Shown one piece after another: positions 7,781-54,913 of a stretch of 64,000 bases of DNA. This DNA comes from Thermomonas sp. (GTDB taxonomy: Bacteria; Pseudomonadota; Gammaproteobacteria; Xanthomonadales; Xanthomonadaceae), in assembly GCF_023953935.1 (NCBI RefSeq), contig NZ_JAMLIW010000002.1, positions 186,001-250,000 of the forward strand, in the 5' to 3' direction. The notes beneath the pieces were generated by a model. It was not told the DNA's origin. It was given only the letters and a program-made list of their open reading frames with translations, and searched no databases. Each line of letters begins with the position of its first letter. Within the stretch, counting starts at the first letter, position 1. The translations under genes and the position numbers were made by a program.

Positions 7781-9685
7781 ATGAAACACCGCAAAACCTC
7801 CATCGCCACGGCATTGGCGAGTATAGCCATCCCGACCGCACTGGCGATCGCCAGCCCCGCCGCGCAGGCGCAGTCCGCCACGCCGGCCAACTCGCCCTAT
7901 GCCGGCCTGTTCGACAACATGGTGGTGTATGGCGACAGTTTCAGCGATGGCGGCAATTTCTCGCTCGCCATGGGCTATCCGGAAGCATCGCGCTTCACCA
8001 CCAATCCGGGTCTGGTGGCGGTGGAATACTTCGCCCACTACTTCGGCATGCCGCTGGCGGCATCGGAACAAGGCGGCGGCAATTACGCGTTTGCCTTCGC
8101 CAGCGTTCGTGAACCCTCGCCCGGCGTGCCCTCGCTGCCCGAGCAGCTGGCGATGAGCCTGCAGGCCAACGGTGGCAAGGCCGACCCGAGGACGCTGTAC
8201 ACGATCGTCGGCGGCGCCAATGACGTGTTCACCAACTTCACCTCGGTGGGAATGGGGCTGCTGACCCCGGAAGAAGCCGCCGCCAATCTCAAGCTGGATG
8301 CGCAGGCCGAACTCGACATGCTCCACCAGCTGGAGCAGGCCGGCGCGCGCTACGTGATGGTGTTCAACCTGCCCGATCTAGGGCTGTCGCCCGACATCGT
8401 CGCGCTGGGCCCCGATGTGGCCGCACAGCTCACCGAAATGACCCGGATCTACAACGACGCGCTCAACGCCGGGCTGGGGAATACCGGGCTCAACGTGATT
8501 CCGGTCAATACGTTCGGGCTGTTCAGCGAATTCGTCGCCGACCCGTCGCGCTACGGCCTGGGCAATGTCACCGATGCAGCCTGCGGCGCTGGCTCGCTGG
8601 CGGTGGACTGCGGGCCGCAAGGCTCCGGCATGCCCTACACCTATGCGTTGGGCACCGAGATGACGTATCTGTTCGCGGATTTCGGCCACCCCGGCACCGC
8701 CGCGCACAAGATGCTGGCGCAGTACGCACAATCCATAGTGATAGCGCCCGGACAGATGTCGCTGCTGGGCGAGGCGCCGCTGCAATTCGGCAACGACGTG
8801 CAACATGGGGCACTGGATCAGGCCCTGCTCCGGACTGCGGATGCCTCCTCCGGGTGGCGTCCGTGGATCCGTTTCAGCCATATGCGCGATCGCTTCGATG
8901 CACAGGTGAATTCGCCGGCCAACCGCGCCGAATCCAATACCCTGAGCATCGGTGCCGACATCCAGGCCAGCCCGACGCTGACGGCCGGCCTGGCCGTGAG
9001 CCTGGGCCGGCAGCGCGATGCGTTTGCCGGCAATGCCGGCGGCTTCCGGCTCGATGACACCCTCGGCACCGGCTATCTGGCCTGGCGTTCGGAACACGCA
9101 TTTGCGGGCATCGCCGCCAGCTATGGCCAGCTGCGCTTCCGCGACATCCATCGCAATGTCGCGATCGGCCCGGATCTGCGGCGCGAGCGCGGTGACACCT
9201 CCGGCACCCAGGCGGCGCTGACGTTGACCGGCGGTTGGTGGTTCGACATGGGGACGTGGAAAACCGGACCGTTCGCCGATCTGAGCTGGCAGCGCATCCG
9301 CATCGACGGTCATGCGGAAGCGGGCAACGCATCCACCGCCATGTGGTTCGGCCGCCAGCAGCGCCAGGCGATGATCGGCAGTCTCGGCTGGCAGTTGGCG
9401 GCGCGCCTGCCCTCCGGCAGCAAGACCCTGTATCCCTACGCACGCATCGCCTGGCACCACGATGCCAAGGCGGATCCGCGCCTGGTCAGCGCCGGTCTGG
9501 TCAGCATGGCGGGCAGTTTCGCATTGCAGGGCTACAGCCCGGATCGCAACTGGGCCAGCGTGGACCTCGGGCTGGGCTGCGACTTCAGCCCCAACCTGTC
9601 GGGATGGATCGGCTACAGCGGCCGGTTTGCCGACGCCAGCCAGCGTCGGGACAGCGTGAATCTGGGTCTGCGCTTCCAGTTCTGA
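7781..9685 (+). CDS. GDSL-family esterase/lipase autotransporter
   Basis: A 634-residue outer-membrane esterase. A signal peptide ends at about residue 30 (AQA-QS). The passenger is a GDSL hydrolase with VVYGDSFSDGGN (nucleophile Ser53), the GGAND oxyanion block and FGHPGTAAH carrying the Asp/His pair. From about residue 370 the sequence alternates aromatic and small residues as in a type Va autotransporter barrel, and ends in the aromatic-terminated strand LGLRFQF. This is the EstA/ApeE architecture. I chose the ATG at 7781 because GAGGAAA precedes it and the signal peptide follows immediately. It is transcribed away from the ECF sigma gene, with about 120 bp between the two starts. Confidence 0.93.
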   Translation: MKHRKTSIATALASIAIPTALAIASPAAQAQSATPANSPYAGLFDNMVVYGDSFSDGGNFSLAMGYPEASRFTTNPGLVAVEYFAHYFGMPLAASEQGGGNYAFAFASVREPSPGVPSLPEQLAMSLQANGGKADPRTLYTIVGGANDVFTNFTSVGMGLLTPEEAAANLKLDAQAELDMLHQLEQAGARYVMVFNLPDLGLSPDIVALGPDVAAQLTEMTRIYNDALNAGLGNTGLNVIPVNTFGLFSEFVADPSRYGLGNVTDAACGAGSLAVDCGPQGSGMPYTYALGTEMTYLFADFGHPGTAAHKMLAQYAQSIVIAPGQMSLLGEAPLQFGNDVQHGALDQALLRTADASSGWRPWIRFSHMRDRFDAQVNSPANRAESNTLSIGADIQASPTLTAGLAVSLGRQRDAFAGNAGGFRLDDTLGTGYLAWRSEHAFAGIAASYGQLRFRDIHRNVAIGPDLRRERGDTSGTQAALTLTGGWWFDMGTWKTGPFADLSWQRIRIDGHAEAGNASTAMWFGRQQRQAMIGSLGWQLAARLPSGSKTLYPYARIAWHHDAKADPRLVSAGLVSMAGSFALQGYSPDRNWASVDLGLGCDFSPNLSGWIGYSGRFADASQRRDSVNLGLRFQF

Positions 9686-9733
9686 GCGCAGGCAGCGGAG
9701 AGCCTGGGGAGGGCCGGCTTCAACGGCATTCCA

Positions 9734-9753
9734 GCGCGCCAGGGAAGGCGCGC
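9734..9753. terminator. Hairpin between convergent estA-like and hda genes
   Basis: Perfect 7-bp inverted repeat GCGCGCC / GGCGCGC with a 6-base loop, lying between two convergent stop codons. There is no clear T-run on either side, so function as a terminator is only likely from its position. Confidence 0.35.
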
Positions 9754-10473
9754 CTACCCCAGTTCCGGCCCCAGCACCTGGCGCAAAAACGGCACCGTCA
9801 GCCGCCGCTTGGCCACCAGCGATGCGTGATCGAGCCGCTCGAACAGGGCGGCGAGGCTGCCCGGATCGCGGCTGCAGCGTTGCAGCATCCAGTCCAGTGC
9901 GGCGGCGTCGAAATCCAGCCCGCGGGCGGTGGCGCGTGCGCGCAGCATCCGCGCGCGGCCGGCATCGTCCAGCGTCGGCAACTGCCAGCGGGCGCACTGC
10001 GCCAACCGCGAGCGCAGGTCGGGCAGTGCCAGTGGCAGCGCGTCAGGCGCCTCGATCGCGGCGTACAGGCTGCCGCGCCCGGCATCACGCTGGGCGTTGT
10101 GGTGATCGAACAGGGCGATTTCGTCGATGCGCTCCCCGGCTACCGCATCCAGATCGTCCAGCGCCACCAGCTCGGCCGCGACGTCTTGCAGCGCCTCGCC
10201 CACGCGTCCGCGCAAACCGCGCAGGGACAGATAGACCGTGCGCCGGCCGGCCGCCTCGGCTTCTGCGCAGGCCGCCAGCAGCAGGTGGGTCTTGCCGCTG
10301 GAATGCGGGCCGGACAGGAAGATCGGGTCGACATGGCGCCCGAGCGCCAGCGCGCGCAGCTGGTCAAGCAACCCCGTCGGCGCCGCGACGAAGCGCTCGA
10401 AGCGCTGGTCAGGCGGCGCGCGCAGCGCCAGCGGGAGCTGCGAACCGATCGCTTCCACGTCAGGAGGCGTCAT
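9754..10473 (-). CDS. hda: DnaA regulatory inactivator Hda
   Basis: AAA+ protein of 239 residues, homologous to DnaA domain III. With the beta clamp, Hda stimulates ATP hydrolysis on DnaA and prevents over-initiation of replication. Visible features are a clamp-binding-like N-terminus (SQLPLALR), the P-loop LSGPHSSGKTHLL, the Walker B region ALDDLD, and the arginine-rich C-terminal lid. The ATG at 10473 matches the family N-terminus and overlaps the 3' end of the upstream permease gene by 14 bp, so the two are probably co-transcribed. Confidence 0.92.
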   Translation of the reverse strand: MTPPDVEAIGSQLPLALRAPPDQRFERFVAAPTGLLDQLRALALGRHVDPIFLSGPHSSGKTHLLLAACAEAEAAGRRTVYLSLRGLRGRVGEALQDVAAELVALDDLDAVAGERIDEIALFDHHNAQRDAGRGSLYAAIEAPDALPLALPDLRSRLAQCARWQLPTLDDAGRARMLRARATARGLDFDAAALDWMLQRCSRDPGSLAALFERLDHASLVAKRRLTVPFLRQVLGPELG

Positions 10474-42226: not shown

Positions 42227-42514
42227 GCCCACTCCTTGTTCCGCCCAAAGCCGCAAGCGCGGGCCGCGCCCTGCGCGCTGGATGGTGCGCTGGATAGTGT
42301 CTCAGAACGGTTGTGCACACATACTCAGCTCTCGATCACCAAACCTGACGCGCAAGCACCTGAATGTGCATCTATTTTCCAAAGACTTTCTCACCCCCAC
42401 CCTCTCTTTTGGTAGAGAACCCGACGACATCTCTAAGCACTGTACCTTTTGCTCAACCATCTCGGTTAGTCCGACGCCCCCTCCTTAGCATCCGTGGAAA
42501 GCAAGCGAGGCCAC

Positions 42515-43240
42515 TCAGGGGATGTGCCTTGCGTAAGCTCGAACATCGAGCATCGGAACCGTCGCCATAGCCTGCAGCCGTGCAATGAGCTCGAACAGGA
42601 ATCGGGTCGCTGGACGAGTTGCGGCCTGCAGGCTGTAGGAGCTTGAGGTCTCATCGAACGTAAAGAGTCCACCTTCAGCTACACAGCCCAGATCCAGCCG
42701 GCCATCACCTAGATCGCTCCTTAGATGCTTTTCCATCGTGTCGCCGAACTGCGGTGACCACGAACAGTTCAGCGTCAAGAGGCCGCCAAGTATGTGAGGG
42801 GGTGCCTTGGGACTCTTGGGGCCATCGACGGTGGGGACCGGCATGCTGGTCCGGTGTAGACGACGTACGCTCAAGACCTTCTGCTGGGCATACTGAATGT
42901 GCCCGGCGGTCATCTCTTGCTTGGCTTCAAACACCGCGTAGATGCTTTCGGCCGGCACCACCAAACTGCCCTTGAAGTCGAAGACTAGCGGCGAGTACTG
43001 GCGATCGTGAATGACAACATCGATCTGCTCGCTGAACGAGCCCTCGCTGTCGACGACGTGGGCCTTGGTGGCTCTGTAGCGGAGAGGTAGGTGCTTGTTC
43101 AGGACCTCGATCCACACGGACTCGCTCGCATCTCCCACCTCCGTGGGATGGCCTATAGCTGTGCGTGCGCGTCGAAGGTCATCCTCTACCGACTGGTGAA
43201 GATGATCAAACAGTCCTGGGAGTGACCATGAACCACTCAT
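42515..43240 (-). CDS. DUF6602-like protein, possible PD-(D/E)XK nuclease
   Basis: A 241-residue protein resembling DUF6602. Residue pattern: Glu45 in SVWIEVL on a helix, Asp74 in EQIDVVIHD, and Glu105-x-Lys107 in YAVFEAKQEM. This E...D...ExK spacing is that of PD-(D/E)XK nucleases. No transmembrane or signal segment is seen. The C-terminal half (about 140-241) is a second region I do not recognise. The ATG at 43240 overlaps the nucleotidyltransferase stop (ATGA). It ends the restriction-modification operon. Nuclease activity is inferred from residues only. Confidence 0.6.
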   Translation of the reverse strand: MSGSWSLPGLFDHLHQSVEDDLRRARTAIGHPTEVGDASESVWIEVLNKHLPLRYRATKAHVVDSEGSFSEQIDVVIHDRQYSPLVFDFKGSLVVPAESIYAVFEAKQEMTAGHIQYAQQKVLSVRRLHRTSMPVPTVDGPKSPKAPPHILGGLLTLNCSWSPQFGDTMEKHLRSDLGDGRLDLGCVAEGGLFTFDETSSSYSLQAATRPATRFLFELIARLQAMATVPMLDVRAYARHIP

Positions 43241-43992
43241 GCGAACTCGGCCCCCCAACTACTCTGTAGCGCTGCTCGTGCCGCACTGGCGATGCTGCGC
43301 TTTTCGTTCGCCGTTAGGTCATCCGAGATGATGTTGTTGGTATTGGAAGGATCGACGAACCTTGCGCCTTCGAGGCTATCGCGGAGGAACTCAAGAGCGA
43401 CCACCACATTGCTAGACAGGTTGCCGGTCAAGCGCCCATGAAGTGCACGGATGGCAGCAAGCTCCAAGTAGAAGGACGGAAAGGTGAGGCCTCTACGGTT
43501 GCGCCAGATCTTGAGCAGGCGGATCTCGTCAGTCCTCCCAGACTGAGATACAGCGGCGATGTGGCGAGAGACGTTTGTTTGCAGGTGGCTCTGCCGCTTG
43601 TTGCTGTAGAGCCAGTGATCGTTGCCGTAGGCGCTTTGTCTGCGACCCGGCACGACATCCACGTCATAGGACCCAATACGCATCCCGATAGATACGTTTT
43701 GCTTCCTTGGCTTGAAGCCTGCTCCATCAAGCGCGTTGAAGAGTGTCTGGTAGATATTGGATAGGGTGTGCTCGGTAGTTGAGGACAACGAAACGAACAG
43801 ATCAATGTCTGTACCGGACCGAATGGCCGTGCCTTTCGCGAACGAACCACTTGGCTCGACGCACAGGACCAGTTGCCCACCCCACTTATTGATCGTCGGC
43901 TCGAGCAACCCCTGCACCTGGCGGACGGCAGAGTAGGGCCCGGCATCAACAGCGTACTGGGCGAGAACCTGTCGTAGATAGTCGTCGCTCAT
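43237..43992 (-). CDS. CD-NTase-like nucleotidyltransferase
   Basis: A 251-residue protein with a polymerase-beta-type nucleotidyltransferase core. The GS motif is at Gly49-Ser50 (PSGSFAKGTAIRSGTDIDLF), the two metal Asp are at 62 and 64, and the third acidic residue is Asp110 or Asp112 in YDVDVVPG. RLLKIWRNRRG and FPSFYLELAA, near residues 158-180, match the helical half of OAS/CD-NTase proteins. All three metal ligands are intact. It could make a cyclic or linear oligonucleotide, or modify RNA. It is coupled by ATGA overlaps to hsdR upstream and the DUF6602-like gene downstream. The defence role is inferred from this context. Confidence 0.75.
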   Translation of the reverse strand: MSDDYLRQVLAQYAVDAGPYSAVRQVQGLLEPTINKWGGQLVLCVEPSGSFAKGTAIRSGTDIDLFVSLSSTTEHTLSNIYQTLFNALDGAGFKPRKQNVSIGMRIGSYDVDVVPGRRQSAYGNDHWLYSNKRQSHLQTNVSRHIAAVSQSGRTDEIRLLKIWRNRRGLTFPSFYLELAAIRALHGRLTGNLSSNVVVALEFLRDSLEGARFVDPSNTNNIISDDLTANEKRSIASAARAALQSSWGAEFA

Positions 43993-46340
43993 GGCACGGC
44001 ACCTTCCTGGCCATACAGATGCCGCTGGAACCCGACGAACACCTGGCGCACCTGCTCCGGCTTTCCAAGCTCGGCGAAGGCATCATTCAGCGCCTTGTAC
44101 CGAAGCCGCAGCAGCGGTGAGAGCTTCTCCGCGTCGAGTTCGTCGACTCCCTGCTTGACGTACTGCGCGAGCACGAAGTCGATGAAGGCCTGCTGCTTGT
44201 CGGTGAACTCGCCGGCGGACGCGGCACGTGCCGCTTCGGCTCTGGCCTCGCGCGTCAGCGGATCTCGTGCGTACGCCACGTAGGCGAGCACATCGAAGAG
44301 GTCGCTCTTCTCGGCTTCGATGATCTTCTGCATCTCGGCCAGCGGCTCTTTGCCGAAGCCACGATCCGCTAGATCAGCCAGCAGCTTCTTGCGGGTCTCT
44401 GGCGCGCTCCAGATGCGGCGCAGCTCGTCCTCGTCCTTGAAGAACTCGGGCAGGGTGCCGAACAAGGCTTCGAGGAATTGGGCCGCAGACATGGGCCGCC
44501 CATCCGCACTCCAGAACGTCGTCGCGCTCATGCTCTGGATTGCGCGAGCCTTGCCGTCGGCCAGCTTGACCTGGACCTTCTGCTTCGGCGCCTCTGGCTC
44601 GCCTGGCGGCAGAGGATCGGGCTCGCCGGGCTCTCCCGGCTCGCGCGGCCCCCTGGGCTCTCCGGGCTCTCCGAGCTCCGGTTCCTGCGGCTCTCCGTCC
44701 CACTCCGGGTCGTTGAAATGGTGGTGCGCCTTCACGAAGTCATAGATCGTGAAGTGGTCCTTGCCGTCGTACAGGCGGGTGCCGCGGCCGACGATCTGCT
44801 TGAACTCGATCATCGATCCCACCGGGCGCATCAGCACGATGTTGCGCACGTTGCGCGCATCCACCCCGGTTGAGAGCTTTTGCGAGGTGGTCAGGATCGT
44901 CGGGATGGTCTTCTCGTTGTCCTGGAAGTCGCGCAGCGCCTGCTCACCCCGTGCACCGTCATCGGCCGTGACGCGCACGCAGTAGTCGGGATCCTTGCTC
45001 GCCTTCAGCTGATTGATCAGGTCACGCACCATCAGCGCATGCGGCTGTGTCGCGCAGAAGACGATGGTCTTCTCGCGCTGATCAATCATCTCCATGAAGA
45101 GCTTGACCCGGTATTCCTCGCGCTCGGGGATAATGATCACGCGGTTGAAGTCGCCCTCGACGTAGCGCTTTCCGGGGACAACCTCGCCCTCGACGATCGC
45201 ATCGTCCGGCGTGTAGGTGTAGTCGTCGATCGTCGTGGCGATCTGCTTGACCTTGAAGGGCGTCAAGTAGCCGTCGTTGATGCCCTCCTTCAGCGAGTAG
45301 GTGTAAACCGGCTCGCCGAAGTAGGCATAGGTGTCGGTGTTGCCCCGGCGCTTGGGCGTGGCGGTGAGGCCGAGCTGCACGGCCGGGGCGAAGTAGTTCA
45401 GGATCGCGTGCCACTGGCCTTCGTCGTTGGCGCCGCCCCGGTGGCACTCGTCGATGACGATGAAGTCGAAGAAGTCCGGCGGGTATTCGCCGAAGTAGGG
45501 CGAGGGCTGGCCATCTTTGGGCGGGCCGCTCATGAAGGTTTGGAAGATCGTGAAGAAGATGCTGCCGTTCTTTGGCACTCTCCCCTTCTTCTTGATCTCG
45601 TCGGGCGCTATGCGCACCAAAGCATCGTCGGGGAAGGCTGAGAAGGCGTTGTAAGCCTGGTCGGCCAGGATGTTCCGATCGGCCAAAAACAGAATACGGG
45701 GCCGGCGTGAAGGCTCGCCATCCCCTTTCCAGTCGGTCAGGTTCCAGCGGCTCTGGAAAAGCTTCCAGGCAAGCTGGAAGGCGATCGCCGTCTTGCCGGT
45801 GCCAGTGGCCAGGGTAAGCAGGATCCGCTCGCGCCCCTCGGCGATGGCTTCGAGCACGCGTCGGATCGCGATCTCCTGGTAGTAGCGGCTCTCCCAGGCG
45901 CCGCCCTTGTCCTCGTAGGGCACGGCGGCGAAGCGGTCGCGCCAGGCGTTGGCCTCGGCAAAGGACTTGGCCCAGAGCTCGTCGGGGGTCGGGTAGGCGG
46001 CGACATCGCCCTCCTCGCCCGTGGCCATGTCCACGCCGTAGATGGCTTGGCCATTGGTGGCATAGGTGAAGCGCACGGCCAGTTTCCTGGCGTACTGCTT
46101 GGCCTGCGCCAGACCCTCCGTGTAGGGCTTGTCCCAGGCCTTAGCCTCGATAACCGCGAGCTTGGTGTTCCGATAGATCAGCACGTAGTCGGCGATCTCC
46201 GCCCTTGCGCGCTGGCCCTTGCCCTGCAAGCGGCCGGGCGCGATGACCTCTCGGCGGATGCGGCTGCCTTCGACCACGCCCCATCCGGCCGCCTGAAGCG
46301 CGGGGTCGATATGTTCGGCGCGGGTGTCGGCTTCGTTCAT
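43989..46340 (-). CDS. hsdR: Type I restriction enzyme, R subunit
   Basis: A 783-residue HsdR of the EcoEI size class. The N-terminal nuclease has AEIADYVLIYRNTKLAVIEAK (Asp and ExK). The SF2 translocase has LATGTGKTAIAFQLA (Walker A), IVIDECHRGG (DECH) and LTATPKRRG, and the second lobe has VGRGTRLYDGKDHF. Between the motor and C-terminal domains is a striking GEP-rich collagen-like linker (about 540-580), followed by a helical C-terminus that contacts HsdM. The ATG overlaps the hsdS stop (ATGA). Confidence 0.93.
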   Translation of the reverse strand: MNEADTRAEHIDPALQAAGWGVVEGSRIRREVIAPGRLQGKGQRARAEIADYVLIYRNTKLAVIEAKAWDKPYTEGLAQAKQYARKLAVRFTYATNGQAIYGVDMATGEEGDVAAYPTPDELWAKSFAEANAWRDRFAAVPYEDKGGAWESRYYQEIAIRRVLEAIAEGRERILLTLATGTGKTAIAFQLAWKLFQSRWNLTDWKGDGEPSRRPRILFLADRNILADQAYNAFSAFPDDALVRIAPDEIKKKGRVPKNGSIFFTIFQTFMSGPPKDGQPSPYFGEYPPDFFDFIVIDECHRGGANDEGQWHAILNYFAPAVQLGLTATPKRRGNTDTYAYFGEPVYTYSLKEGINDGYLTPFKVKQIATTIDDYTYTPDDAIVEGEVVPGKRYVEGDFNRVIIIPEREEYRVKLFMEMIDQREKTIVFCATQPHALMVRDLINQLKASKDPDYCVRVTADDGARGEQALRDFQDNEKTIPTILTTSQKLSTGVDARNVRNIVLMRPVGSMIEFKQIVGRGTRLYDGKDHFTIYDFVKAHHHFNDPEWDGEPQEPELGEPGEPRGPREPGEPGEPDPLPPGEPEAPKQKVQVKLADGKARAIQSMSATTFWSADGRPMSAAQFLEALFGTLPEFFKDEDELRRIWSAPETRKKLLADLADRGFGKEPLAEMQKIIEAEKSDLFDVLAYVAYARDPLTREARAEAARAASAGEFTDKQQAFIDFVLAQYVKQGVDELDAEKLSPLLRLRYKALNDAFAELGKPEQVRQVFVGFQRHLYGQEGAVP

Positions 46341-47545
46341 GCCACTGCTTCCAGTTGCCGGTCGGTTGCCTTGCCCGTGAGCTTGCCGGTGAAGGCCTGG
46401 TGCAGCAGGGACTTCTTGAGCTCGTCAAGGGCGGCAGTCTTGCGATCAGCGAGATCGGCCAGATCACGGGTCGCAGTTGTCAGAGCCTCGATCCTGGCGA
46501 CACACTGCTCTTGGGTATCACGCGGCGGTAACGGGACAGCGACCTCAGCCAGCATGCCTTGATTGAGGCTCTTGATGTTGAGCCCATTCCCGCCGTCAAT
46601 CAGTTTGCGGCGCACAACACGCGACCTCAGAAACTGACAGACATATGGCGGAACTGCTCTGCCGCGATCGACACTGATCCGAATAGTGAATCCGGAGTGC
46701 GTGACAGGCTCTCTCAAGCCTCCCACAACCATGCAACGCCCAATCAACTCCGGATTGCCGTTGGATCGAACGGTCAAGATGTCGCCCTCGGATACCGCGT
46801 CGTTGGGACTCAGATCACCGTCGAGCGTCACCACGTCTAGGTCATCAAGTGGGGCCCAGAAGTGGCTCTGGAAGTCCTTGACACCGATAATCCTGATGGA
46901 GCAGCCGTTGCTTCGCTTGGTGAAATTGACACCATTCCGGAAAGTCGCCAGTTCGCCAAGATGAATAGGCTCCGCACTGTTCGCGAGGTCTGCGAAGATC
47001 GCATCGTGCTGCTGCTCGAACACCTCCCGCGCGTTCTGCAGGTTCTTCTCGGTGTTGGCCTTGGCCGTGGCGATGGCCTCAAAGGCCTCGTCGAGGATGG
47101 CGACTATGCGGCGCTGCTCGGGGAGGGGTGGCGCCACGATCGGCAACGCCTCTATTTCCGCCTTGTTGATTGATGCAAAGACCGCCCCTTCCTTCCCTGC
47201 GATCCGGTCTTGCATACCGAGCAACTGGTAGAAGAGGAAGTCGGCGTCCATGCTGTTCCGGCACCGAATGGCCGCAAGCCCGCGGCCGATGCAGACCTTC
47301 TCTCGAGTGAAGTTGACTGGGCCGACAGGCGCCCGAACCGACATGAGGATGTCGCCGGGCAAGGCCTCCTTGGTGACTTGAGTGGTCCACTTCGTAGGCG
47401 GCTGAAGTTCCGAGGCACCAAAGTCCTTCTTGCCTTGATAGAACGGCAAGCCGTTGCCGTCTTGGTTATAGAACCGGCCATCCGGTGATTGCCCTGCAAT
47501 CACTTGCGCATGCGCTCCCAAGGGAACAGCTTCCGTCCACCCCAT
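46337..47545 (-). CDS. hsdS: Type I restriction-modification specificity subunit
   Basis: A 402-residue HsdS with two target-recognition domains joined by helical spacers. The first spacer block is ALPIVAPPLPEQRRIVAILDEAFEAI; the second is LNQGMLAEVAVPLPPRDTQEQCVARIEAL. Each TRD recognises one half of a bipartite DNA site. The site cannot be read from sequence. The ATG at 47545 overlaps the hsdM stop (TGATG); a GTG one codon earlier gives a GTGA overlap instead. Confidence 0.92.
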   Translation of the reverse strand: MGWTEAVPLGAHAQVIAGQSPDGRFYNQDGNGLPFYQGKKDFGASELQPPTKWTTQVTKEALPGDILMSVRAPVGPVNFTREKVCIGRGLAAIRCRNSMDADFLFYQLLGMQDRIAGKEGAVFASINKAEIEALPIVAPPLPEQRRIVAILDEAFEAIATAKANTEKNLQNAREVFEQQHDAIFADLANSAEPIHLGELATFRNGVNFTKRSNGCSIRIIGVKDFQSHFWAPLDDLDVVTLDGDLSPNDAVSEGDILTVRSNGNPELIGRCMVVGGLREPVTHSGFTIRISVDRGRAVPPYVCQFLRSRVVRRKLIDGGNGLNIKSLNQGMLAEVAVPLPPRDTQEQCVARIEALTTATRDLADLADRKTAALDELKKSLLHQAFTGKLTGKATDRQLEAVA

Positions 47546-49002
47546 CACGCCACCAGCTCCCGGATCGTGGCCAGGGCCTCAGCACTCTCAGCATCGAGCG
47601 CGGCGATCTCGTCGAGGATTTCCTGCGGGCTGCGCAGCGTGACCACTTCGCCGGCATTCGGGTTCTTGACCGACAGGTCATATGTGGTCGTGTCGATACT
47701 GGCCGCGTCCAGCGTCCAGCTCTTTGGCGAGGCCGCGAAGCTCTTCTGCAGATCGACGAACTCCACCAGATCGGCGTCGTTAAGCGCTGTGGTCTTGCCT
47801 AGGCTGCGGCCCGGATCGAGCTGGTAGTACCAGACCTGGCGCGTCTTGGTGCCCTTCTCAAAGAACAGCACGACGGTCTTCACGCCGGCGCCCTGGAAGG
47901 TGCCGCCGGGGCAGTCGAGGATGGTGTGCAGGTTGCAGCTCTCCAGTAGCAGCTTGCGCAGGCTGGTCGAGGCGTTGTCGGTGTTCGAAAGGAATGTGTT
48001 CTTGATGACGATCGCACCCCGGCCCCCAGCCTTCAGCGTCTTGATGAAGTGCTGCAGGAACAGGAAGGCCGTCTCGCCGGTCTTGATGGGGAAGTTCTGC
48101 TGGACCTCCTTGCGCTCCTTGCCGCCGAAGGGCGGGTTGGCCAGGATCACGTCGAAGCGGTCCTTGTCCTGAATGTCGGCGATGTTCTCGGCCAGCGTGT
48201 TGGCGTGGATGACGTTGGGCGCCTCGATGCCGTGCAGGATCATGTTCATGATCGCGATCACGTAGGCGAGGCTCTTCTTCTCCTTGCCGTAGAACGTGCT
48301 CGTCTGCAGGGTCTTGAGGTCGGCCGTGGTCAGGCTCGGCCGGCTGGAGAGGTACTCAAAGGCCTCGCACAGAAAGCCGGCCGAGCCACAGGCGCCGTCA
48401 TAGATCCGCTCGCCGATCTTGGGCTTGACCACCTTGATCATGGCGCGGATCAGCGGCCGGGGCGTGTAGTACTCGCCGCCGTTCCGGCCGGCGTTGCCCA
48501 TGTTCTTGATCTTGGCTTCGTAGAGGTGCGAGAGCTCGTGCTTCTCGCTCTGCGAACCGAAGCGCAGCTCGTCGACGTGCTCGATCACGTCGCGCAGGTT
48601 GTAGCCGCTCTGGATCTTGTTCTTGATCTCGCCAAACACCTCACCGATCTTGTACTCGATGGTGTTCGGGCCGCTGGCGCGCTGCTTGAAGCCTGCGAGA
48701 TACGGGAAGAGCCTGCCGTTGACGAAATCGCGCAGGTCGTCGCCCGTGAGCGCCGCGTTGTGGTCGAGCTTGCCGTCCGGCCCCTTGGGTGCGGCCCAGC
48801 TCTCCCAGCGGTAGGCCGGCTCGATGATGTAGCGGTAGGGCTTGCCTTCAAGCGCGGCCTCGCTCGCCTTGTCGGCTTCAAGCGCGTCGAGGTACTTCAG
48901 GAACAGAAGCCACGAGGACTGCTCGGTGTAGTCGAGCTCGCTGGTACAGCCGGCATCCTTGTGAAGGATGTCGTCGATATTCTTGAAGGTCTGTTCAAAC
49001 AT
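47545..49002 (-). CDS. hsdM: Type I restriction-modification methyltransferase
   Basis: A 485-residue adenine methyltransferase. An N-terminal helical domain (FKNIDDILHKDAGCTSELDY) precedes the SAM-binding core: GEYYTPRPLIRAMIKVV, YDGACGSAGFLCEAF (motif I) and FDVILANPPFGGKE (catalytic NPPF). A C-terminal helix ends the protein. It is first of the five overlapped genes hsdM-hsdS-hsdR-NTase-DUF6602-like. It begins 69 bp after the small coiled-coil gene of the recombinase module. Confidence 0.94.
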   Translation of the reverse strand: MFEQTFKNIDDILHKDAGCTSELDYTEQSSWLLFLKYLDALEADKASEAALEGKPYRYIIEPAYRWESWAAPKGPDGKLDHNAALTGDDLRDFVNGRLFPYLAGFKQRASGPNTIEYKIGEVFGEIKNKIQSGYNLRDVIEHVDELRFGSQSEKHELSHLYEAKIKNMGNAGRNGGEYYTPRPLIRAMIKVVKPKIGERIYDGACGSAGFLCEAFEYLSSRPSLTTADLKTLQTSTFYGKEKKSLAYVIAIMNMILHGIEAPNVIHANTLAENIADIQDKDRFDVILANPPFGGKERKEVQQNFPIKTGETAFLFLQHFIKTLKAGGRGAIVIKNTFLSNTDNASTSLRKLLLESCNLHTILDCPGGTFQGAGVKTVVLFFEKGTKTRQVWYYQLDPGRSLGKTTALNDADLVEFVDLQKSFAASPKSWTLDAASIDTTTYDLSVKNPNAGEVVTLRSPQEILDEIAALDAESAEALATIRELVA

Positions 49003-49071
49003 GGTGGATCGATTCCGTGATCAACACTCGGCGCCCAATATCTTCCATCTTCCACAAATTCATCTGTCCAC

Positions 49072-49524
49072 TCACGACTTCTTCGCTTCCTTCGACTTCT
49101 TCTTCCCGCGCTTCCGTCCTGCTCGGTTCATTTCGGGCAGGGGCTTATCCCAAGCCAACAGGTCCATTCTGACGTTATTGGCGTAGGCGTTGTATTGCCA
49201 CCGCCGAAACTGGTCGAGGAGCCTATTGTTGGTCTCCTCGAGCCGCTTGACCTGCGCCTCAAGGTCGGAAATACGCCGGGTGGCCGCCTCCAAGGTGAAA
49301 TCCCTTGGCAGTGCCTGCTTTACCTCCCGCAAGTCCTTCTGGCGCTGCTGAAATCGCTCTTTGATCGCGGGATACAGGTACATGGTGTGCTTGGACACCG
49401 AGCCAACATCGAGGATCTTTGCGATGCGCTCGCAGAATAGCGGCCATGTGAGCTTGCCCTCCCAGCGATCCAGCTCGCGCATGACCTTGGGCAGAGTCGC
49501 CTTGGTAATGATCTTCTTAGGCAT
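49072..49524 (-). CDS. Small coiled-coil protein of the recombinase module
   Basis: A 150-residue basic protein. A predicted helix-turn-helix-like N-terminus (SVSKHTMYLYPAIKERFQQR) is followed by a coiled coil (ISDLEAQVKRLEETNNRL) and a Lys/Arg-rich tail (RAGRKRGKKKSKEAKKS). Size, position six bases after the third recombinase, and coiled coil resemble TnpC of Tn554, a helper of orientation or efficiency. Sequence relationship is not shown, so the function is inference from place. Confidence 0.65.
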   Translation of the reverse strand: MPKKIITKATLPKVMRELDRWEGKLTWPLFCERIAKILDVGSVSKHTMYLYPAIKERFQQRQKDLREVKQALPRDFTLEAATRRISDLEAQVKRLEETNNRLLDQFRRWQYNAYANNVRMDLLAWDKPLPEMNRAGRKRGKKKSKEAKKS

Positions 49525-49530
49525 AGGGAA

Positions 49531-51378
49531 TCAGGCCAGAACCAACGGGATTGCCTTCGGACTTAGGGCCTCCAAGGAGGGCACCTCAATCACGCCAAGG
49601 TCCATGAGTGCGCGCCGCACTGGCGAGGGGTCGTGCTCGTCAGGTATCCGCAGCACCGCCCCCTCTGGAACGCTCGGGTGCTCAAGCGCCATTCGCATGG
49701 CCCTGACATGCGCAAGCTTCCATTTGTGGTTGTCCACCCAGCGGTCTGCCCCAAAATCGCCGTCTTCATGGGCCTTCTGAGCACACTCAAGCAAGAGCTC
49801 GGTCTGCGCTTCCAGCAGGAGGATGCGTTCCAGTGTGACGTAATCACCTTTGATGCAGACATGCTCCTTGCAGGTCATGCACTCGCGATGTTTCTGACAC
49901 GGCGCCATGGCGTAGTCGTGAACGCACATGCCGTAGAGCGTGGCCTTGGCCGTACCCAATCGATCCACACCAAGTTCCTGGTAGGCGACTGGCTGGCGAT
50001 GCTTGATGCGCTCCAGCAGTGGGGTCGGCTGAATGGGTAGCAGCTTCTTTGCTTCCTCAAGGCGCTCCTCGGGGGTGCGGTGGTCGTAGTGCCGATTGTC
50101 AGCGACTCGCGCGCGACCTGCCCATTGAGCAAGGGTGTAGTCATCCATCCCGGCCCGCTCTGACATGGTGCTCAGCCAGTGGCGAAGTTGGTGCGACGTT
50201 AGCTTGATGGGAGAGCCATCAGCACGCTGCAGGCTATAACGCTGAAAGAGTGATTCGATCAATCCAGAGCCCAAGCGTCTGTTTACCTCGTTGGCATCGG
50301 GAACTCGCCAGGAGTCCTCCCGGATGGCCCGATCCCGACTAAACTCGTTCTTCCGATGGAGACACAGCGCGTCCCAAGTCTTTAGGGTCTTCTCTTCGTC
50401 CAGGTAGGGCCAGTAAATGCCCCCAAACTCTTCGACACTGGCCAGTGCGCCTGCCTCCGGCGACCCATCTGCGTGCTTGAATGCCTGACGTGCTGCTTCA
50501 CGCGCGGGCCCGCTAATCTCAACCAGCCTTCGCACAGCCTCCTGAACGACCTCATGCATAGCGGGCACGACCCACTTCTTGGTTGTCCCCTTACCCTTGG
50601 CCGCACGCCAGCGCATGAACATTTGAGGCTGTCCACGTTCGTCGCTCTCCCACTGAACACAGTCGATAGGAAGCTTCAAGACCTCTGAAATGCGACTGGG
50701 CGCGACCATCAGGAGGATGAAGATAGACGAATAGAATCGACTTTCCGTGTCGTCCGCGAGCGCAAAAAGGTCAGCGACGGCAAGCATGTCGTCATTCGTC
50801 GGAAGCTTTGCCGCGCGATGTGCCTGTCCCGCCTCACCCAAATCCTCAGTGAGGATAACTGGCTTCTTGAATGGTGACTTCCAAGCCGGAAGCGACGGAA
50901 CTAGGCGCTTCTCCCGCATAAAGTCAAAGATCGCTTGGATCTTCCTTCCTGTATTGCACTGAACCTCCGCGCTGAAATAGAACGCCCTACACTTATCGGC
51001 ACACACATCCATGACAGCCGCGCTTAGAAGTGAAATTTCCGCACGGCCACATGCAGACAATAGGCCGGCCTCCACACAACGGAGAGCCTGCACTGTACTG
51101 CTAAGGTCTTTGACTGGATTTTGGCTGTAGCTGTACCGAACGTAGGCTTTGGCGAATTGCTTGAATGGATCCGCCAGAGGCGTAAAGGAATAGCTGTCGA
51201 GCGGAGCCGTTTTCGTGGCGAAGACAACGGCGGTCTCGTTGTGCTTCCACTTGTCCTTATCCCAAGCCCCCCCGCTAGCGAAGGCGGTCAGATCTTCCCT
51301 CGCCAGCCGGATGAACTCAGCGAGATTGGCGCTGGCATCTCGGTCGGCGCGAGGCACGAACTGAACGATCTCACCCAT
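49531..51378 (-). CDS. Tyrosine recombinase, third of trio
   Basis: A 615-residue integrase-like protein. Catalytic pattern: Arg in MVAPSRISEVLKLP, HQLRH in LTSHQLRHWLSTM, and the terminal Arg/Tyr region QWAGRARVADNRHYDH. A Cys-rich stretch after the core (MAPCQKHRECMTCKEHVC) may bind zinc. Length exceeds phage integrases and fits TnpB-size proteins of recombinase trios. The start overlaps the second recombinase by 8 bp. Confidence 0.85.
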   Translation of the reverse strand: MGEIVQFVPRADRDASANLAEFIRLAREDLTAFASGGAWDKDKWKHNETAVVFATKTAPLDSYSFTPLADPFKQFAKAYVRYSYSQNPVKDLSSTVQALRCVEAGLLSACGRAEISLLSAAVMDVCADKCRAFYFSAEVQCNTGRKIQAIFDFMREKRLVPSLPAWKSPFKKPVILTEDLGEAGQAHRAAKLPTNDDMLAVADLFALADDTESRFYSSIFILLMVAPSRISEVLKLPIDCVQWESDERGQPQMFMRWRAAKGKGTTKKWVVPAMHEVVQEAVRRLVEISGPAREAARQAFKHADGSPEAGALASVEEFGGIYWPYLDEEKTLKTWDALCLHRKNEFSRDRAIREDSWRVPDANEVNRRLGSGLIESLFQRYSLQRADGSPIKLTSHQLRHWLSTMSERAGMDDYTLAQWAGRARVADNRHYDHRTPEERLEEAKKLLPIQPTPLLERIKHRQPVAYQELGVDRLGTAKATLYGMCVHDYAMAPCQKHRECMTCKEHVCIKGDYVTLERILLLEAQTELLLECAQKAHEDGDFGADRWVDNHKWKLAHVRAMRMALEHPSVPEGAVLRIPDEHDPSPVRRALMDLGVIEVPSLEALSPKAIPLVLA

Positions 51379-52951
51379 TGCAGTCAGCCTCCAAAAGGCG
51401 CACGTCGATCAAGCGCGTCTTAGCCTCCTTGCACATCGAGACGCAGTGCTCGACAGCCAAGATCAACTGGTCGTTGGCATTGACCACGACCTCCGGACAG
51501 CCTGCCGCCCTGACACGGTCTTTCTCAGCATAGAGGTCTGCCAATACTTCCTCATGCGGGCCATCGACCCATGGCTGGAAGTGGTAGCAGGTGTAGCAGG
51601 CGCGGAACCCGCTGGCGCAGAAACCGTAGTTCCCGCAGTTGCCTACGGGGTGCTGCCGATCATTGGGCACGCGGCTTCGCGGATCGTCACCTCGGATTGC
51701 CTCACGCTCCGAGTACACCAACTTGCCGAGGCAGGCCTGCGCAAAGGGAGCGAGCTGAGCCCCCACCAGCTCATTGATGACCACGGCTTCTTGCGCCGTG
51801 TTCTCGGTATATACCCCCACGTTCTGGATGTCGGAGTGATCCAACAACTCGGCAATGATGAAGGCACTGAAGCCTTCGCGCCGGAGCTTGGTCCCGCGCG
51901 TGTGCCGGAATCGGGTTGCCGACAGGCGAATGAACTCACCGGTGCGCTCTGAACGTGCTGTAGAGGCTTTGGCACAACGCTGCAGGGCCTGCCTAAGCTG
52001 TGCCGTTGTCGCGTGCAGCAGGTCCGGGGCGCGCCCGGCCAGGCAATCCTGAAGCTCATCGACACGGTGGATGTCTTTGAGGCTGTTCCGGTTGATGAAT
52101 ATTGGCACCTCGTCCGCCAATTCCGGGGCGAGTGCCATTCCGATGGCTTCTGAGACTGCGGCAACGGACTGTTGGTGCTGGGCCCTCAGGACCAGAAAGA
52201 GGTCTTCAAGGATGGCCAAGGACCGAAAGGTCCCGCGAAATCTCCCACCTCGCTGCTTGGCTCGCGGGATATTCAACCTGTAGAGAGGTGCCCCCTCGCC
52301 AGCCACTTGACCCAGATCCCGTCCCCTGAGCGCTGCGATCTGAACGGGGCGTCGCGCCGTCATCACTAGAGAAAGCAGGTACGCGTAGTCTTCGAATGCA
52401 ATGTGCTTGCGAACCACCGCCATGTTTGCCCAATCCAGCAAGGCCGCCATTTCAAGGTCGGTCAAGGGTCCCGTCTCGGGGCATCCACCGGCAACGGCAG
52501 CGCCCTTCTCGTTACCCTTGATTCGCCAGCCTTCGAGCAGGTCAACGACCTCCTTGGAAACCCCTTCAAACCCATAGTCGGCCCAGGCAAGGAGGAATCC
52601 CTTCAATCCACCCAGTTGCCACTGCTCATCAGTGCCCAAGCTGGCGCGCCAGTTGATGAGATCGACCGAGGTCACTCTCACAGTCCCAGTGTCCCTAAGA
52701 AATCGCTTGAATCGCGTCTCCATGTTGCGTGCGTGACGCGCCGAAGCCTCTTCGGCGTAGCGCCGCAAGGTGGCGCGGAATCCCGCCTCGGTTTCAGGCT
52801 CTACCGCTGTTGGAAACACCAGTGAGAGCTGCACGTCTTTGTTCAGTCGCCAATGATCGGCGGATGCGTCGAACGAGTACCCGTCCTTGGACACCGAAGG
52901 TGCGGGCAGCCTCTTCCCGACACTTGGCGGCGCAGCCTTAACGCGACTCAT
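51371..52951 (-). CDS. Tyrosine recombinase, second of trio
   Basis: A 526-residue integrase-like protein. Core residues: Arg in VMTARRPVQIAALR, RFRHT in SATRFRHTRGTK, and LDHSDIQNVGVYTENT (His...Tyr). A cysteine cluster near the C-terminus (CGNYGFCASGFRACYTCYHF) suggests a zinc-binding knuckle. The first about 100 residues form a SAM-like DNA-binding region. It overlaps the first recombinase by 14 bp and the third by 8 bp, so the three are read in series. Confidence 0.85.
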   Translation of the reverse strand: MSRVKAAPPSVGKRLPAPSVSKDGYSFDASADHWRLNKDVQLSLVFPTAVEPETEAGFRATLRRYAEEASARHARNMETRFKRFLRDTGTVRVTSVDLINWRASLGTDEQWQLGGLKGFLLAWADYGFEGVSKEVVDLLEGWRIKGNEKGAAVAGGCPETGPLTDLEMAALLDWANMAVVRKHIAFEDYAYLLSLVMTARRPVQIAALRGRDLGQVAGEGAPLYRLNIPRAKQRGGRFRGTFRSLAILEDLFLVLRAQHQQSVAAVSEAIGMALAPELADEVPIFINRNSLKDIHRVDELQDCLAGRAPDLLHATTAQLRQALQRCAKASTARSERTGEFIRLSATRFRHTRGTKLRREGFSAFIIAELLDHSDIQNVGVYTENTAQEAVVINELVGAQLAPFAQACLGKLVYSEREAIRGDDPRSRVPNDRQHPVGNCGNYGFCASGFRACYTCYHFQPWVDGPHEEVLADLYAEKDRVRAAGCPEVVVNANDQLILAVEHCVSMCKEAKTRLIDVRLLEADCNG

Positions 52952-54263
52952 CGCCGTCCTCCCCTAGGTCCTTACCGCACTCGATCCCTGCCTGCACCAT
53001 CCGTGCCGCCTTGTCGCTGGCTTCACGGATGTGACGTCGGTTATACCTTGTCCCCGAAGCCTTGCTCCGATGGCCATTCAGGAAGGCGCGCACGTCCAGC
53101 TCCCGGGCCTCACTGATTGGCGACGAATCAGATCCAGTTTCCTTCGCCCGCGCCTTGGCATTGTTCTCATCAATACTGACGGACAGCTCATAGTTGAAAT
53201 GGTGTCGGAAAGCATGGGTGTGGATAGCCGCAAAGGCCGGATCGACCTTCCTCATCCGATCGAACATTTGGTTTAGCGCAGAGATTGACAGCGGTTTTCC
53301 CCAGCCCCTGCTCTTGTGATGGGACACAAATAGGTATGGGTGCTTTCTGGCCGGGCCAATCTTGGCTCGGACCTGAAAGATGTATCGATCAATCTGGTTT
53401 GTCAGTGACTCTGACAACGGCAGCGGCCGCTCTTTGGTCTTGGCTACCGGCTGATAACGTCGCGAGTCATGCGCGTCGTCCTGGTTGCGCCGAACCCAAA
53501 CATGCGGTTCGTGCCCCAGATCGAACTGATCAATGCGAAGGCTGAGCAACTCCCCTCGCCGCATGCCGGTAAGCCGGGCCATGCCGAAGATGATTGCGTT
53601 GCGTAGTTGGACGCTGGGATCCCGGAAAGGATTGCGTGGATCACCTTCCGCCCCTACCGCCATGAAGCGGTCAACCAGCTCCGTCGGTGGCGATCTGAGT
53701 TCCTTATCCTCATCAAGTTGCTTAGCCAGCCCTTTGGGCCGGTGTTTGCGAATGGTCTTTGCCATCCGCGCGATTTCCTGCGCAACCTTGGGTGAATTCT
53801 GGTGCTGCGTGACGACGGAAGCCGTAAATTCCAGGTAATCCGCGAAGGTACTGAGGCGATTGAAGTGCTGCTGACCACCAATTGTGGGTTGAGTCTGCTT
53901 CCGTGCAACCCTGGCCTCGATAAAGTCGATGACTCCATCAGACTGTGGTGATGCCCTTTCTCCATCGGACTGCCAATGCCGCATGTCGAGCTTGGCGAAG
54001 TCGCGTAGCGAGTCCACATCCGCGACGGTGAGGAAGCGACTGCTGCGAAACTCCGCGATCAAGTCCCGCCCGTGTGTCTGTTCCCAGCGCATGAGCACGA
54101 CGAGATCAGACAGCTTGTTGCGGATTGTGTTGACGGCAGCTCCAGCATTCCGGAGTTGGCTTGTCGCGAACAGCGTCGGATAGAAGAGGGGCACGCCCTG
54201 CTCATCGTGGAGCATCGGGACTCGCTCACCCTCGCCAAGCACATGAACTGACAGCGTAGGCAT
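52938..54263 (-). CDS. Tyrosine recombinase, first of trio
   Basis: A 441-residue integrase-like protein with an intact active site: Arg in LTGMRRGELLSLR, HAFRH in THAFRHHFNYELS, and GHRSKASGTRYNRRH (His and the nucleophile Tyr). It would cut and rejoin the element's ends. The ATG at 54263 is my choice; a GTG at 54275 in the same frame is possible and neither has a strong ribosome-binding site. The promoter must lie in the about 65-bp AT-rich gap before the ssb terminator. Confidence 0.87.
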   Translation of the reverse strand: MPTLSVHVLGEGERVPMLHDEQGVPLFYPTLFATSQLRNAGAAVNTIRNKLSDLVVLMRWEQTHGRDLIAEFRSSRFLTVADVDSLRDFAKLDMRHWQSDGERASPQSDGVIDFIEARVARKQTQPTIGGQQHFNRLSTFADYLEFTASVVTQHQNSPKVAQEIARMAKTIRKHRPKGLAKQLDEDKELRSPPTELVDRFMAVGAEGDPRNPFRDPSVQLRNAIIFGMARLTGMRRGELLSLRIDQFDLGHEPHVWVRRNQDDAHDSRRYQPVAKTKERPLPLSESLTNQIDRYIFQVRAKIGPARKHPYLFVSHHKSRGWGKPLSISALNQMFDRMRKVDPAFAAIHTHAFRHHFNYELSVSIDENNAKARAKETGSDSSPISEARELDVRAFLNGHRSKASGTRYNRRHIREASDKAARMVQAGIECGKDLGEDGDESR

Positions 54264-54339
54264 TGCTTTATTCACCGATTAAAGCATATGTACGACTATA
54301 CAGTTCTTTTTCGACTCCGCAAGATGCTCATGAAACAGA

Positions 54340-54365
54340 AAAGGCCCCGTAGTGACGGGGCCTTT
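54340..54365 (-). terminator. Intrinsic terminator of ssb
   Basis: AAAGGCCCCG / CGGGGCCTTT with a 6-base loop, 36 bp past the ssb stop. On the ssb strand it is followed by TCTGTTTC. The element's leading end begins just beyond it. Confidence 0.8.
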
Positions 54366-54400
54366 CTGACTCTTTATCAACGCCTCTACGGATGTGTTCG

Positions 54401-54913
54401 CTAGAACGGGATATCGTCATCGGCAAACGGCACATCGTTGCCGAACTCGGCCGGCTTCGACGGAGCCGCGCCGGATTCGCCGCGCGGCGCCGGAGCGCTG
54501 CGCTGCGGGCGCTCGCCGCCGCCACGCGAGTAGCCACCCTCTTGCGAGCCGCCGCCACGTGCGTAGCCGCCGCCTTCACCGCCACGGCCGCCCAGCATCT
54601 GCATTTCGTCGCAGATGATGTCGGAGGTGAAGTGCTTGACACCTTCTTTTTCGTAGGAGCCGTACTCAAGGTGCCCCTCGATGTAGACCTGCCCGCCCTT
54701 GGTCAGGTATTTGCCGGCGGTCTCGGCGGTCTTGCCGAACACCTTGACCCGGTGCCATTCGGTTTTTTCCTGCCAGTTCCCGTCGCGATCCTTGCGCGAT
54801 GAGGTGGTGGCAATGCTCAACGTGGTCATCGCCGCACCGCTTTGGGTATAGCGGACCTCTGGATCGCCGCCCAGATTGCCAATCAAGATGACCTTGTTCA
54901 CGCCGCGTGCCAT
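54401..54913 (-). CDS. ssb: Single-stranded DNA-binding protein
   Basis: A 170-residue SSB. The OB fold contains NKVILIGNLGGDPEVRYTQS, TSSRKDRDGNWQEKTEWHRV, VFGKTAETAGKYLTKGGQVY and IEGHLEYGSYEKEG. A Gly/Ser/Pro-rich linker leads to the acidic tip DDDIPF that recruits partner proteins. Length is normal. An upstream TTGCCG/TATACT pair suggests its promoter, and it is divergent from ispB. Confidence 0.96.
   Translation of the reverse strand: MARGVNKVILIGNLGGDPEVRYTQSGAAMTTLSIATTSSRKDRDGNWQEKTEWHRVKVFGKTAETAGKYLTKGGQVYIEGHLEYGSYEKEGVKHFTSDIICDEMQMLGGRGGEGGGYARGGGSQEGGYSRGGGERPQRSAPAPRGESGAAPSKPAEFGNDVPFADDDIPF

Follow-up and report, generated by a model that had tools for sequence, protein, structure and literature searches.

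A CD-NTase and NucC Gene Pair at the Tail of a Type I Restriction-Modification Operon on an Apparently Mobile Island of Thermomonas sp.

Sequence, family and structure comparisons support the reading that a CD-NTase and a D...ExK nuclease share one operon with a complete type I restriction-modification (R-M) system in Thermomonas sp. The operon lies in a 64,000-nucleotide stretch of DNA (here called the window), and we read its last two genes, with a probability of about 0.77, as a minimal two-gene CBASS that a mobile type I R-M operon carries as its last cargo and that works on its own. The parts are known, and the arrangement is uncommon but recurrent. A preliminary description of the same DNA knew of no system with this make-up, which does not hold for the parts: the coupling to R-M is the less usual feature, and the combination of a CdnC/CdnD-like cyclase and NucC is a classic form of CBASS.

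Five co-directional genes on the minus strand form the operon: hsdM (47545..49002; type I methyltransferase subunit; Pfam N6_Mtase and HsdM_N; PADLOC MTase_I, E 7.3e-160), hsdS (46337..47548, GTG start; specificity subunit; Pfam Methylase_S; PADLOC Specificity_I), hsdR (43989..46340), the CD-NTase gene (43237..43992), and nucC (42515..43240). The restriction subunit is of the EcoAI/EcoEI type (NCBIfam NF046051, E 1.6e-245, over the cut-off) and has the Pfam domains HSDR_N, ResIII, and EcoEI_R_C, so that all three subunits are present with the domains expected from Pfam and NCBIfam. The stop/start overlaps reported in the preliminary description were found at all four junctions, each of 4 nt (GTGA at hsdM/hsdS, ATGA at the other three). 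GC content is 57 to 59% in the CBASS genes and 62 to 65% in hsdR and hsdM. Open reading frames were called mechanically in six frames, and some starts and neighboring genes are unsure; for nucC, the start is most likely the ATG at 43240 (giving 241 aa) rather than the upstream TTG at 43258.

The nucC product carries a Pfam DUF6602 match and was matched by PADLOC PDLC00745, "Endonuclease (NucC)" (E 1.9e-97), and by five distinct PDB sequences (6q1h, 6p7o, 6p7p, 6uxf, and 7zgv) that bear the name NucC or, for 6q1h, "ORF C62." The best of these, 6q1h (E 3.6e-81), covers residues 4 to 238 of the 241-residue query, i.e., full-length homology. A D...ExK nuclease site is present, with D74, E105, and K107 invariant in a nine-sequence alignment; we take these to be the NucC catalytic residues D73, E104, and K106, with the offset given by the alignment to solved NucC. 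Of the nuclease-like residues picked out earlier, these three thus stand, and E45, which is not invariant, does not. The preliminary description was wrong to find no standard CBASS effector, because the DUF6602 protein is NucC; the same identity rules out an undescribed nuclease and corrects the reading "DUF6602, function unknown" for this gene. In PMC10419184 and PMC8682760, NucC is described as a DNA endonuclease of CBASS and of some type III CRISPR systems that is activated by cyclic tri-AMP (cAAA) and switches from trimer to hexamer on binding it.

The adjoining gene encodes a 251-aa CdnC/CdnD-like oligonucleotide cyclase of a small family. A CBASS cyclase model matched it over its full length (E 5e-90), the Pfam SMODS match was below the cut-off, and structure matches, led by CdnD, CdnC, and CdnB, place it in the CD-NTase fold. 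G49, S50, D62, D64, and D112 do not vary in either of two alignments (20 and 25 rows), and the GS motif and Asp triad noticed earlier are therefore real, with D112, not D110, as the third carboxylate. In one relative (L028), which is without NucC, two carboxylates of the cyclase are changed. A second-messenger branch within the R-M operon, as first suggested, is supported; family and fold are well founded, and the predicted product is a cyclic trinucleotide, cAAA. That prediction is drawn from the known ligand of NucC and not from the cyclase, because the latter is short, divergent, and below the SMODS cut-off.

By analogy with known NucC and CBASS biology, the operon would provide two layers of defense. 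R-M would cut unmethylated phage DNA as a first, non-suicidal layer. If infection continued, a phage cue would lead the CD-NTase to make the cyclic trinucleotide, on which NucC trimers would become active hexamers that cut DNA; destruction of the DNA would end the infected cell without phage release, as a second, suicidal layer. The 4-nt overlaps would tie CBASS synthesis to R-M synthesis, the operon serving for joint delivery and expression, with the CBASS itself presumably autonomous of R-M. Such a mobile unit would combine a first layer that spares the cell with a second that kills it, and hsdMSR-cyclase-nucC on one 12.1-kb island offers a clean system in which to ask whether defense layers co-travel or communicate.

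The NucC CBASS of Escherichia coli MS115-1 has the order CdnC-HORMA-TRIP13-NucC and is a type III CBASS. The window resembles it in having a NucC with full-length homology and a CD-NTase related to CdnC with the same fold, but differs in its shorter cyclase, in the joined hsdMSR genes, and in that neither operon nor island has a HORMA or TRIP13 gene. The operon consists of hsdM, hsdS, hsdR, cyclase, and nucC only, which is not the composition of a type III CBASS; neither HORMA/TRIP13 nor Cap2/Cap3 was found among the genes of the operon or the island. A genome-wide search with bacHORMA_1 and bacHORMA_2 gave no match, and all 14 control genomes were equally silent. Type I CBASS, as set out in PMC10419184, consists of one cyclase and one effector. 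The operon of the window likewise has a cyclase followed by one effector, with no further CBASS gene among those of the operon and island, but here the pair ends a type I R-M operon.

The operon is carried on an insert of 12.1 kb (approximately 42304-54402), together with a 150-aa gene and three tyrosine recombinase-like genes, all on the minus strand. Gene 1 (49531..51378, 615 aa) matched Phage_integrase below the cut-off (E 1.8e-4) and has a homolog, 75% identical, in a genome of another genus (G286); gene 2 (51371..52951, 526 aa) matched it just over the cut-off (E 1.7e-6), and gene 3 (52938..54275, 445 aa) matched it at E 4e-13. The 150-aa accessory gene of this integration module (49072..49524) gave no Pfam family over the curated cut-off; its homolog stands beside the same recombinases in two further loci (L244, from G286, and L245, from G002). 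The insert is flanked by a thioesterase gene and ssb, matches to which were examined in 24 other genomes of the genus: the two lie within about 250 bp of each other in 11; in 10 they are separated, by anything from about 1 kb to location on different contigs; and in 3 at least one of them was not found. Ten of the 11 close loci were inspected, and since the two genes are adjacent in all ten (0 to about 230 bp apart), the insertion site is empty there. The closest relative, G483, is among these ten (84% identical on one side and 80% on the other).

A repeat search over the island found no convincing terminal repeats; a 7-bp direct repeat, AGAACGG, emerged only from comparing the island ends, at 42304..42310 on the left and at 54403..54409 on the right, where it forms part of the last codons of ssb and marks the presumed integration site. 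By itself this repeat is weak, because one more copy lies inside the island at 47440. Adjoining the left copy, the sequence TATGTGTGCACAAC (minus strand, 42310-42323) is common to the far end of the related island of G286. There, the same recombinase set lies beside ssb and carries another type I operon than the window's, ordered hsdR-hsdM-hsdS, with a PtuA-like/PDC-M01 pair behind it; the copy of the set in G002 has methylase and helicase genes in its vicinity. Because of the empty sites, the recombinases, and the island end shared with G286, the whole defense set most likely arrived on a site-specific element, and the integration module looks like a site-specific mobile defense platform. As a separate observation, the four-gene module (49072-54275) stands at the 3' end of ssb in both the window and G286, with different defense cargo in each. 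By eye, the G002 copy also follows an apparent ssb 3' end; tblastn with ssb gave no match in that short stretch. A phmmer search with the window's recombinases gave no match in the loci of cyclase relatives.

Relatives of the cyclase were sought with a single peptide motif from the cyclase alignment in one genome per species (84,980 species); 100 were confirmed and 80 were kept. NucC directly adjoins the cyclase in 68 of these 80 loci (the others being L054, L088, L091, L092, L093, L099, L102, L103, L105, L106, L107, and L109), and the first 8 plasmid loci to be annotated include 6 with the pair; hsd genes were not found in 4 further plasmid loci, which were searched for hsd only. With 16 hsd queries, hsd genes or remnants were found within 3 kb in 6 of the 80 loci, a figure that is a minimum because 3 kb is present on both sides in 57 loci only. 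The pair stands alone, since NucC adjoins the cyclase and does so mostly without hsd genes, which is the distribution that the preliminary description had set against its own proposal of joint action. An obligate five-gene R-M/CBASS system is rejected on the same counts. Close relatives are rare: a phylum-wide sample of 349 genomes contained 3 carriers at E 1e-30, the window's own genome included. A phage-borne origin was considered and rejected: 50,697 phage records gave no match (E 1e-5), and none of 15 pattern matches in viral contigs was confirmed.

In all six linked loci, the hsd genes or remnants are on the strand of the cyclase. A Paenibacillus locus (L085) repeats the order of the window (hsdM-hsdS-hsdR-57 bp-cyclase-NucC); a metagenome-assembled genome labeled Bacteroides (L083) has hsdR-55 bp-cyclase-NucC on a contig that begins just before hsdR; L081 has two genes between hsdM-hsdS-hsdR and cyclase-NucC; and in L090 the order is cyclase-NucC-8 bp-hsdM-hsdS-hsdR. 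The hsd genes of L075 start 1.6 kb downstream, and L062 has hsdM-like fragments. The count leaves out an Eco57I-type methylase gene in L034, which lies 56 bp upstream of the cyclase there. Pfam confirmed the HsdRs of L081, L083, and L085; those of the window, L081, L083, L085, and L090 are at most about 35% identical to one another, and the L075 HsdR is similar to that of the window (E 1.5e-96). On a 90-row cyclase tree, the hsd label (window, L075, L081, L083, L085, and L090) needs six changes for six rows, the well-supported branches alone force six, and its clustering does not exceed that of shuffled labels (mean, 5.9). L081 and L083 stand close together on this tree, separated by a partial row (L108), so a single gain with a loss may account for both, even though their HsdRs share just 28% identity. 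The coupling to R-M is not a one-off, because it recurs in several phyla. Set against random genome placement alone, the linkage is plainly high, a comparison weighed by argument only.

CBASS cyclases of other families occupy type I operons as well. In the window's taxonomic order, the cyclase model matched 18 of 299 genomes in 20 places (E 0.001). Since the control gave matches in 4 of 14 known genomes as well, a weak match need not be CBASS, and the four embedded cyclases were for that reason checked with PADLOC (E 1e-100 or better). Five of the 18 genomes have a cyclase inside a type I operon or at its end: the window, L222 (hsdM-hsdS-cyclase PDLC00796-SLATT 2TM effector-two Schlafen-type genes-hsdR), L223 (hsdM-339-aa gene-hsdS-2TM effector-cyclase PDLC00769-hsdR), L225 (hsdM-hsdS-cyclase PDLC00769-HEC-07-hsdR), and, loosely, L227, in which hsdS and hsdR are about 8 kb apart, with genes on both strands in between. 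Unlike the window's cyclase, those of L222, L223, and L225 belong to PDLC00796 or PDLC00769 and stand upstream of hsdR, and in place of NucC there are 2TM effectors in L222 and L223 and a HEC-07 neighbor in L225; HEC-07 we take to come, like HEC-05 and HEC-06, from Payne et al. Two genomes of the 18 were not counted, one with hsd-like genes on the other strand (G264) and one with an N6-methylase-like gene about 5 kb off (L226); in the rest, no hsd match was found in the stretch examined around the cyclase. Embedding of CBASS in R-M, as in L222, L223, L225, and L227, looks like a recurring pattern. That CBASS of several families stands in or at the tail of R-M operons suggests that such operons are favored carriers of suicide modules.

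Relatives of the window's HsdR occur in 24 of 247 genomes of the same family, the window's included, and in their operons hsdS and hsdR are separated by other genes. We sampled 15 loci, and 10 cargo proteins from 8 of them were scanned for families: Abi_2 was found in L142, L145, L146, and L148, Fic in L136, GmrSD in L134, and DUF3800 in L144, and three proteins gave no match. Neither cyclase nor NucC was found in any of the 15 loci. In L146, a 220-aa gene without an assigned family overlaps the end of hsdR.

Second defenses in or beside hsd genes are on record. DarTG2 is embedded in a type I R-M operon of EPEC (PMC12255303), PrrC is found in Pseudomonas R-M loci (PMC12629846), and TgvAB, embedded in a Vibrio cholerae type I operon, protects on its own, at 10- to 100-fold below the whole cluster against several phages (PMC11411939). 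The window is like these loci in carrying a second defense with its hsd genes, but its module is a CBASS and follows hsdR instead of lying between hsdS and hsdR. PMC11411939 attributes HEC-05 and HEC-06 to Payne et al. 2024, whose preprint on embedded defenses it cites. Our searches of open-licence PMC articles turned up no description of CBASS within type I R-M operons, although that preprint may cover it.

The varied cargo of related hsdMSR operons and of the G286 island, and the ability of TgvAB to protect alone, speak for an autonomous CBASS carried and co-expressed by R-M. Against it, hsd linkage has turned up repeatedly in unrelated settings, something that passive carriage by itself would not call for, and 12 of the 80 relatives lack NucC beside the cyclase. 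The closest competing explanation, possible though considerably less probable, is pure hitch-hiking, in which CBASS merely settled at a tolerant site at the tail of the operon or of the island, is functionally unconnected with R-M, and may be little expressed; it overlaps with the preferred reading and denies only the layered, co-expressed use. Defense genes do cluster, related islands do differ in cargo, and the GC content of the CBASS genes departs from that of hsdR and hsdM; hsd-like genes about 1 kb off on the opposite strand, as on plasmid L022 and in G264 (L149), look like ordinary clustering of this kind. Overlaps and co-orientation at every junction, however, need more than a nearby landing; the reading frames are intact and the active sites kept, and the linked hsd genes all share the cyclase's strand.

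Doubtful is a guard that depends on R-M, in which the HsdR/HsdMS complex would restrain or trigger the cyclase in place of HORMA/TRIP13. Phage inhibition of restriction, or the DNA ends that restriction makes, would then set off NucC, much as PrrC guards EcoprrI. The cyclase and NucC genes are indeed encoded beside hsd genes, with overlaps at every junction of the five; the window's order recurs in Paenibacillus, and hsdR-cyclase-NucC in L083, with other HsdR families; hsd-linked loci are scattered over the cyclase tree; and other CBASS cyclases lie inside type I operons in the same order. Yet a PrrC-like guard should rarely occur without R-M, whereas most cyclase-NucC pairs have no nearby hsd genes (a measure of occurrence, not of function), and the nearest cyclase relative (L030, Luteimonas; 65% identical) has no hsd match in its 20.7-kb locus. 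One conserved HsdR-cyclase contact surface is also unlikely because of the low identity among the compared HsdRs. It is improbable that the type I complex sets off or holds back a cyclic-nucleotide suicide pathway, with HsdR-tailed CBASS as a recurrent arrangement. If it were, this would be signaling restriction, in which the state of R-M (bound to unmethylated DNA or disabled by anti-restriction) sets cyclase output, and R-M control might then extend to operons with other CBASS types between hsdS and hsdR. An RNA-modifying or toxin-type nucleotidyltransferase with a nuclease partner is rejected as very improbable: the motif is common to nucleotidyltransferases generally and an archaeal CCA-adding family matches weakly (E 1.2e-6, far below the cut-off), but the full-length CBASS cyclase match, the leading CdnD, CdnC, and CdnB structures, and the pairing with NucC all point to a cyclase.

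Among the relatives without adjacent NucC, two candidate-phylum genomes have a 1TM CBASS effector beside the cyclase (9484-9990 in each; PADLOC E 6.4e-65 in L106 and 1.1e-60 in L109). Because 1TM replaces NucC there, the cyclase behaves as an exchangeable CBASS signal module. An exonuclease-like gene follows the 1TM effector in L109. Devosia and other Hyphomicrobiales (L088, L091, L092, L105, and L107) form a cyclase clade without NucC, with a MarR-like gene downstream of the cyclase in L092 and L105 and neighboring proteins without a family match in L091 and L107. A tandem CBASS was seen in L003/L149 (G264:C14, approximately 21.7 to 24.9 kb), where a longer cyclase and its NucC are directly followed by the small cyclase and a second NucC. 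In L228 (G657:C1:6969-7718), from one of the two further carriers in the phylum-wide sample, a TAG interrupts the cyclase frame, either in a decaying copy or through an assembly error, and NucC still follows.
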